A stretch of DNA of 42,506 bases from Nitrospirota bacterium. Lineage in GTDB: Bacteria > Nitrospirota > UBA9217. Numbering within the stretch: the first letter of the stretch is position 1; every line of letters starts with the position of its first letter. Shown one piece after another: positions 252 through 986 of the stretch. The notes below the pieces were generated by a model. It saw only the letters and a program-made list of their open reading frames with translations, did no database searches and was not told where the DNA came from. Location: assembly GCA_029858565.1 (NCBI GenBank), contig JAOUEV010000029.1:1-42506 (forward strand), given 5' to 3'. Position numbers and translations under genes: made by a program.

Positions 252-986
252 ATGAAACGCGCAGTGCTGTTAGTCCTGGGTTTCTGGTTCTGCCTCATCC
301 CGCTTACCGTGAAAGCGCAGTCAAGCATCCCCGTCATTACCACCGATGAGCTCAAGAAGATTTACGATGCGAAAGAGGATTTCCTGCTCATCAACGCCCT
401 GAGCCACATCGAACACGCTGAAGAGAGCATCGCCGGCTCCGTCAACATCCCCTACAGCAGGCTGAAGGACGGCAAGTCAAAGCTTCCCGAGAACAAAGGC
501 AAGAAACTGGTCTTCTACTGCAAGGGGCCGAAGTGAACGAAGTCCACAAAAACGGCCGGTCTGGCCGTGAAGATGGGCTACACCAACGTGTACGTGTATA
601 ATGAAGGGCTCCCCGAATGGATCAAACGCGGCTATCCCGCGGACCTGAAGAAAGTCTACCCGCAGATCGAGGTGCCGGTGATTTCCGCAGCGGACCTCAA
701 GAGCATGATCGACAAGAAGGAGAAAATGTTCATCCTGGACATCCGGGACGAGGACGACCTCGCCGCCGGGACCATCAAAGGCGCCGTAAACATCTCCCTC
801 GAAGCGCTGGATCTCCACATCAGCGAGGTCCCCAAGGGCAGGAAGGTCGTGATCATGGACCTGCATGGAAAACAGACGAACATGGCGGGACGGTTCCTGG
901 CATCGAAGGGCTATACCGACCTGATCCGTCTGGACGGCGGGCTTGTGAGCGGCTGGATCAAGGCCGGCTACCCTGTCGAGAAGTGA
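252..986 (+). CDS. secreted tandem-rhodanese protein, predicted selenoprotein (UGA at 534-536 read as Sec)
   Basis: The start is the ATG after a strong AGGAGG site at 240-245. A signal peptide (about residues 1-22, ending VKAQ) is followed by two rhodanese-like domains, about residues 28-125 and 138-244. The first domain's active loop reads Y-C90-K-G-P-K-[UGA95]-T-K-S. In related proteins as I recall them, a Cys commonly sits where the UGA falls (C-x-G-P-x-C-x-x-S). The same frame continues across the UGA with unbroken rhodanese homology ([15 protein letters not shown]) to a TAA-free end at TGA 984-986, giving 244 residues. A SECIS-like hairpin starts four bases after the UGA. Domain two lacks an active-site Cys (DLHGKQ in the loop), so catalysis should rest on Cys90/Sec95. 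Expected role: periplasmic sulfur transfer or thiol redox. Alternative: a nonsense mutation splitting the gene, which the hairpin makes less likely. No sel genes lie in this window. Confidence 0.8.
541..579 (+). promoter_or_regulatory. predicted bacterial SECIS element
   Basis: A two-tier hairpin lies just 3' of UGA 534-536. The lower stem pairs 541-546 with 574-579 (six pairs, one G-U). A 5x5 internal loop follows, then an upper stem pairing 552-557 with 563-568 (ACGGCC with GGCCGU, all Watson-Crick). The apical loop is GGUCU (558-562), the same apical sequence as in the E. coli fdhF SECIS that SelB recognises. The spacing from UGA to the loop is 21 nt, inside the usual bacterial range. Confidence 0.8.

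Follow-up and report, generated by a model that had tools for sequence, protein, structure and literature searches.

Rhodaneses carry a persulfide on the cysteine that ends the central strand of the fold, and in Escherichia coli fdhF the selenocysteine insertion element (SECIS) is a hairpin just 3′ of the UGA codon with the loop sequence GGUCU. The two themes meet in the selenocysteine (Sec) rhodaneses, of which reviews list five forms, including a PF00581 form with a UxxS motif ("form 1", WP_010941598.1) and a form with a UxxxxU motif (PMC13188914). Sec rhodaneses also appear in a published inventory (PMC9312934) and in earlier Sargasso and GOS entries (PMC1088965, PMC2398784). Among the NCBIfam families, TsoB (NF045694) is a rhodanese/DsbD-fusion-like protein with a UxxxxU motif and rhodanese_LYCAU (NF041203) is a family with a CxU motif that can carry Sec.

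The window analyzed here, the whole 42,506-nucleotide stretch of DNA, is an entire contig of a 3.92-Mb Nitrospirota draft genome (144 contigs, 100% complete). Near its start, on the forward strand, a gene at 252–986 is predicted to encode an exported tandem-rhodanese selenoprotein of 244 residues, with Sec as residue 95 and a TGA stop codon at 984–986. The sequence reads as a Shine-Dalgarno motif, AGGAGG, at 240–245 ahead of the ATG at 252, followed by a Sec-type (secretory) signal peptide (252–317) that is likely cut before QSS; the low confidence of the structure model over the first 20 residues (pLDDT 55–60) fits a signal peptide, and it is from this peptide that the export proposed in the first-pass annotation draws its support. 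As that annotation also had it, an in-frame UGA (534–536) lies in the active-site loop of rhodanese domain 1, which reads FYC90-KGPK-U95-TKS, so that Cys90 (519–521), at the catalytic position, has its putative Sec partner at +5. The frame stays open for 149 codons beyond the internal TGA and its period-3 pattern continues, with GC fractions at codon positions 1/2/3 of 0.50/0.33/0.79 before the TGA and 0.57/0.36/0.83 after it. The read-through protein contains two Pfam Rhodanese stretches (4.5e-29), and its PF00581 score of 101.3 bits compares with a gathering score of 22.2.

The structure model contains two rhodanese domains (pLDDT 91.8) and, among solved structures, agrees best with tandem rhodaneses, 6MXV being one; on this modeling evidence the rhodanese fold is confirmed. 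The active-site loop of the model runs between strand 85–89 and helix 97–107, with Sec95 at the sixth loop position, immediately ahead of the helix. In domain 1 the strand that leads into the loop ends at a catalytic Cys (Cys90); domain 2 (669–983 by alignment) lacks one, with Asp203 (codon 858–860) at the place where Cys orthologs read VVYCN or IVYCN. No second copy of exactly this gene, wanted for a test of purifying selection, was found.

The column occupied by the internal UGA was followed through 60 relatives, 396 genomes of the phylum and a set of named genomes, with a triple-rhodanese alignment serving for the family search, and this collection yielded 109 domains with the loop. The loop search pattern admitted only Cys, Sec or Ser at the second position, so that other residues there would have been missed, and within that scope 81 domains are Cys-x4-Cys, 27 are Cys-x4-Sec and one is Gly-x4-Ser. 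Cys is thus found at the Cys90 position in 108 of the 109 aligned domains, and Cys or UGA at the codon-95 column likewise in 108, bearing out both the homologous column and the Cys-x4-Sec pair that had been proposed from the window by itself. Two of the Sec genes are paralogs in the same genome, a triple rhodanese with an N-terminal CxxCH (L002, loop YFCQGVTUAMS) and a single-domain rhodanese (L003, loop FYCRGVGUTLS); both have export-type N termini and the TGA at the same column, and their surroundings (SRP54, IclR, purine synthesis) show no functional link. The full-length two-domain relatives (L018, L019, L048–L054) have Cys. The statement that Cys is common in relatives therefore stands for the family, but not for the nearest relative, L047 (G163 contig 94; about 42–45% identity), whose two loop positions hold Gly and Ser and both of whose domains lack Cys as well as Sec. 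The tree joins L047 and the window protein on two long branches and we accordingly do not take their sisterhood as proven.

Well-supported branches of a quick tree force at least five changes between Cys and Sec. Among closely related triple rhodaneses (L060/L061/L117 and L118/L122/L123) some have TGA at the column and others Cys, suggesting that exchange within these groups may have been recent. About 40 of the 396 sampled genomes of the phylum contain a TGA-containing rhodanese among the matches listed, a figure that counts such genes and not TGAs confirmed at this column in each. Given these genomes and the published inventories, the earlier description of such an enzyme as unusual was overstated.

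The hairpin that the first-pass annotation placed at 541–579 folds as claimed, into a lower stem (541–546/574–579) and an apical stem (552–557/563–568) closed by the loop GGUCU (558–562), and is a candidate bacterial SECIS. Its folding energy is −18.5 to −19.5 kcal/mol, with z about −3.5 to −3.8, and under synonymous resampling a 6-bp stem arises at the exact place in 18% of sequences and an equally stable 43-nt fold in 0.95%. By itself, then, the hairpin is moderately improbable given the encoded amino acids, which is suggestive and not conclusive; it is therefore not our main argument, and the weight rests on comparative evidence.

That evidence comes from the register of the stem-loop. When the loop was required to lie 22–26 nt after codon 95 and the stem to have 5 bp or more, such a structure was found in 25 of 27 TGA genes and in 5 of 81 Cys genes (Fisher p = 2e-17, a value that is only indicative because related sequences are not independent). 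The two TGA genes that depart from this, L062 and L003, encode a single domain and have a loop of four bases, GGTC, that lies one base closer to the UGA, on a stem of 7 bp in L062 and an imperfect stem in L003. In the alignment of these 25 genes, pairing is kept in 94.3% of stem cells and four of the seven pairs have changed on both sides, giving a covariation score that no shuffle reached and that was lower in slid controls. The window itself contributes to this pattern, having A-U at pair 16/32 where all others have U-A, and G-C at pair 18/30 where the others have U-G, U-A or C-G. With the window left out of its construction, a covariance model gives the window 20.4 bits, the best in its 42.5 kb yet no higher than several Cys homologues, and the model is not discriminating because rhodanese coding similarity dominates it. 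Two of the five Cys genes with the stem (L114:3217 and L116:3217) lie inside the Sec clade and have a SECIS-like stem-loop of 7 bp in exactly this register, and they look like recent Sec-to-Cys changes that retain a fossil SECIS. Cys-x4-Sec rhodaneses, with repeated Cys/Sec exchange and these two apparent fossils, are widespread in Nitrospirota.

The hairpin had been called an fdhF-like SECIS, a description of which the noun is better supported than the adjective. Register, a 6–7-bp stem with compensatory changes and a near-invariant G at loop position 2 are conserved among the relatives, and a hairpin just 3′ of the UGA with a G in its apical loop is what structure and register reveal in the window. 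The likeness to the fdhF element lies in that position and in the GGUCU loop; it is unspecific, because the loop letters vary in the family (AGUAA, GGUAA, GGUCG and others). The window's apical stem also lacks the bulged U, and an Rfam scan of the hairpin matched no family.

The genome that contains the window encodes the machinery that a bacterial selenoprotein requires, and the earlier expectation that it would is borne out: a tRNA-Sec with anticodon UCA (64 bits), selB (389 bits), an adjoining selA (604 bits) and two copies of selD (L015 and L016; G000:C3 and C14), both of the Sec type, each having an in-frame TGA within its active-site motif and, after that, a hairpin. We therefore assign a probability of roughly 0.85, from sequence comparison, to the reading that UGA 534–536 encodes selenocysteine and that the gene belongs to the known Sec-rhodanese group of the UxxS type. 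The absence of Cys and Sec from both domains of L047 counts against it. In this way a gene that would be broken in two by ordinary gene callers, as had been anticipated, becomes a credible selenoprotein.

On that reading SelB, directed by the hairpin at 541–579, would insert selenocysteine at UGA 534–536 of a periplasmic two-domain rhodanese. A redox mechanism for domain 1 can also be outlined, and to this we give about an even chance. Cys90, the normal rhodanese nucleophile, would accept sulfane sulfur or a disulfide. Sec95 stands five residues further along, where the next helix begins, and would resolve the Cys90 adduct as a selenylsulfide, freeing sulfide or thiol. The Cys90/Sec95 pair would then be re-reduced by a periplasmic thiol system, for which DsbD-type proteins could be the electron source; three DsbD_TM genes are found in the genome. 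Domain 2, without its Cys, may be structural or ligand-binding. By analogy, TsoB, in which a rhodanese with the UxxxxU motif is fused to a DsbD-like part, would support a redox reading.

A different role for the same selenoprotein is suggested by the gene that follows. A methyl-accepting chemotaxis protein (MCP) with 4HB_MCP_1, HAMP and MCPsignal domains is encoded on the same strand at 1060–2589, starting 73 bp downstream of the rhodanese gene, and the two genes are possibly on one transcript. Sec would in this case be inserted, but the protein would act mainly as a periplasmic sensor or binding partner of the chemoreceptor and not as an enzyme. The L047 rhodanese is also directly followed by a 4HB-type chemoreceptor, 22% identical in its sensor domain, a pair that has been kept although the rhodanese has no Cys, and the loss of Cys from domain 2 of the window protein points the same way. 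Against this, the pair occurs in only two genomes, the MCP sensor domain is found elsewhere with no rhodanese neighbor detected, and the retention of Cys90 and Sec95 argues for chemistry; we consider a mainly sensory role unlikely, while allowing it an appreciable chance. Two cases are too few for us to claim a functional unit of rhodanese and MCP. More doubtful still is a relay in which a sulfur or redox compound would be sensed or processed by the exported Sec-rhodanese and the state handed on to the MCP; this would amount to selenium-dependent chemotaxis. The pairing in two distant genomes is nonetheless the most interesting lead from the locus. At the other side of the rhodanese gene, the contig starts (window 1 to about 155) with what by eye is a C-terminal remnant like a REP-associated IS200-type transposase (HLLEVCRYVVLNPVRARMVETPDAWKWSSYLAAAG).

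The other alternatives dispense with selenocysteine. A single step from TGC or TGT to TGA could have placed a nonsense mutation at a Cys codon of a decaying gene, leaving the hairpin incidental. The frequency with which synonymous resampling yields the apical hairpin allows for such an accident, and the loss of both active-site Cys residues from the closest relative indicates a branch that tolerates inactivity. Decay would nevertheless have had to strike the very column at which 26 other genes, including the two paralogs of this genome, use Sec, at the hairpin distance that those genes share and with compensated stem pairs, and it would have left frame and codon periodicity intact across 149 codons; we regard it as improbable. 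Less probable again is that the UGA is a true stop, giving a truncated domain 1 (252–536) and a separate domain 2 protein started internally, for example at GTG 567. The two fragments are what standard gene callers would be expected to report, but in the model topology the first product would end within the active-site loop, without the helices and strand that follow, the second would start within the hairpin and have no signal peptide, and in the Cys relatives the protein is a single continuous chain. Least probable is a sequencing or assembly error at 534–536. Such an error is conceivable in one contig of a 144-contig draft, but in view of the hairpin and the paralogs it is unlikely to have fallen by chance on just this codon.

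Two further kinds of Sec rhodanese were seen in the course of these searches. Four single-domain rhodaneses, predicted to be exported (L156–L159; G003:C45, G208:C92, G345:C140 and G185:C47), have the TGA at the catalytic Cys position itself, as in the loop VVVYUMFDKRSPLA, and in all four a closely similar hairpin follows (GGTCGCCGTTGGCGACC); L038 (VYCGLDLRGP) is a Cys version of this type. The UxxD motif of the four lies outside the five forms quoted from PMC13188914. True C-x-U rhodaneses of the LYCAU type are present in the phylum as separate genes (L160, L161 and L162), with tandem pairs in G009 and G006, so that within the phylum Sec occupies three different places in the one rhodanese loop. 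The set of Cys and Sec rhodaneses is natural material for learning what a rhodanese gains from selenium, on which the literature searched gave no biochemical answer.

Among the described systems, form 1 (WP_010941598.1) shares with the window protein the Pfam domain and the U-x-x-S motif (U-T-K-S in the window, U-A-M-S and U-T-L-S in the paralogs), a comparison made by the listed motif and domain. TsoB has the same spacing, its two Sec residues corresponding by motif to C90 and U95; the window protein differs in having no DsbD part and Cys in place of Sec at the first position, and its 87-bit match, confined to the rhodanese part, is below the 805-bit cut-off. The best NCBIfam match is to rhodanese_LYCAU, at 91.5 bits against a cut-off of 115, with Sec two residues past the Cys in that family and five in the C-x4-U loop of the window. 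Since it falls below both cut-offs, the gene would go unnamed by these two Sec-rhodanese models. The Francisella rhodanese-like family protein (PDB ID: 6MXV), with two tandem rhodanese domains, is the best match by fold and one of the best by sequence, yet is only 23% identical, and its pairwise alignment with the window protein leaves a gap at the Sec column. Sec rhodaneses themselves are not new, and the window gene is very probably a well-supported new example of a selenoprotein kind already on record.
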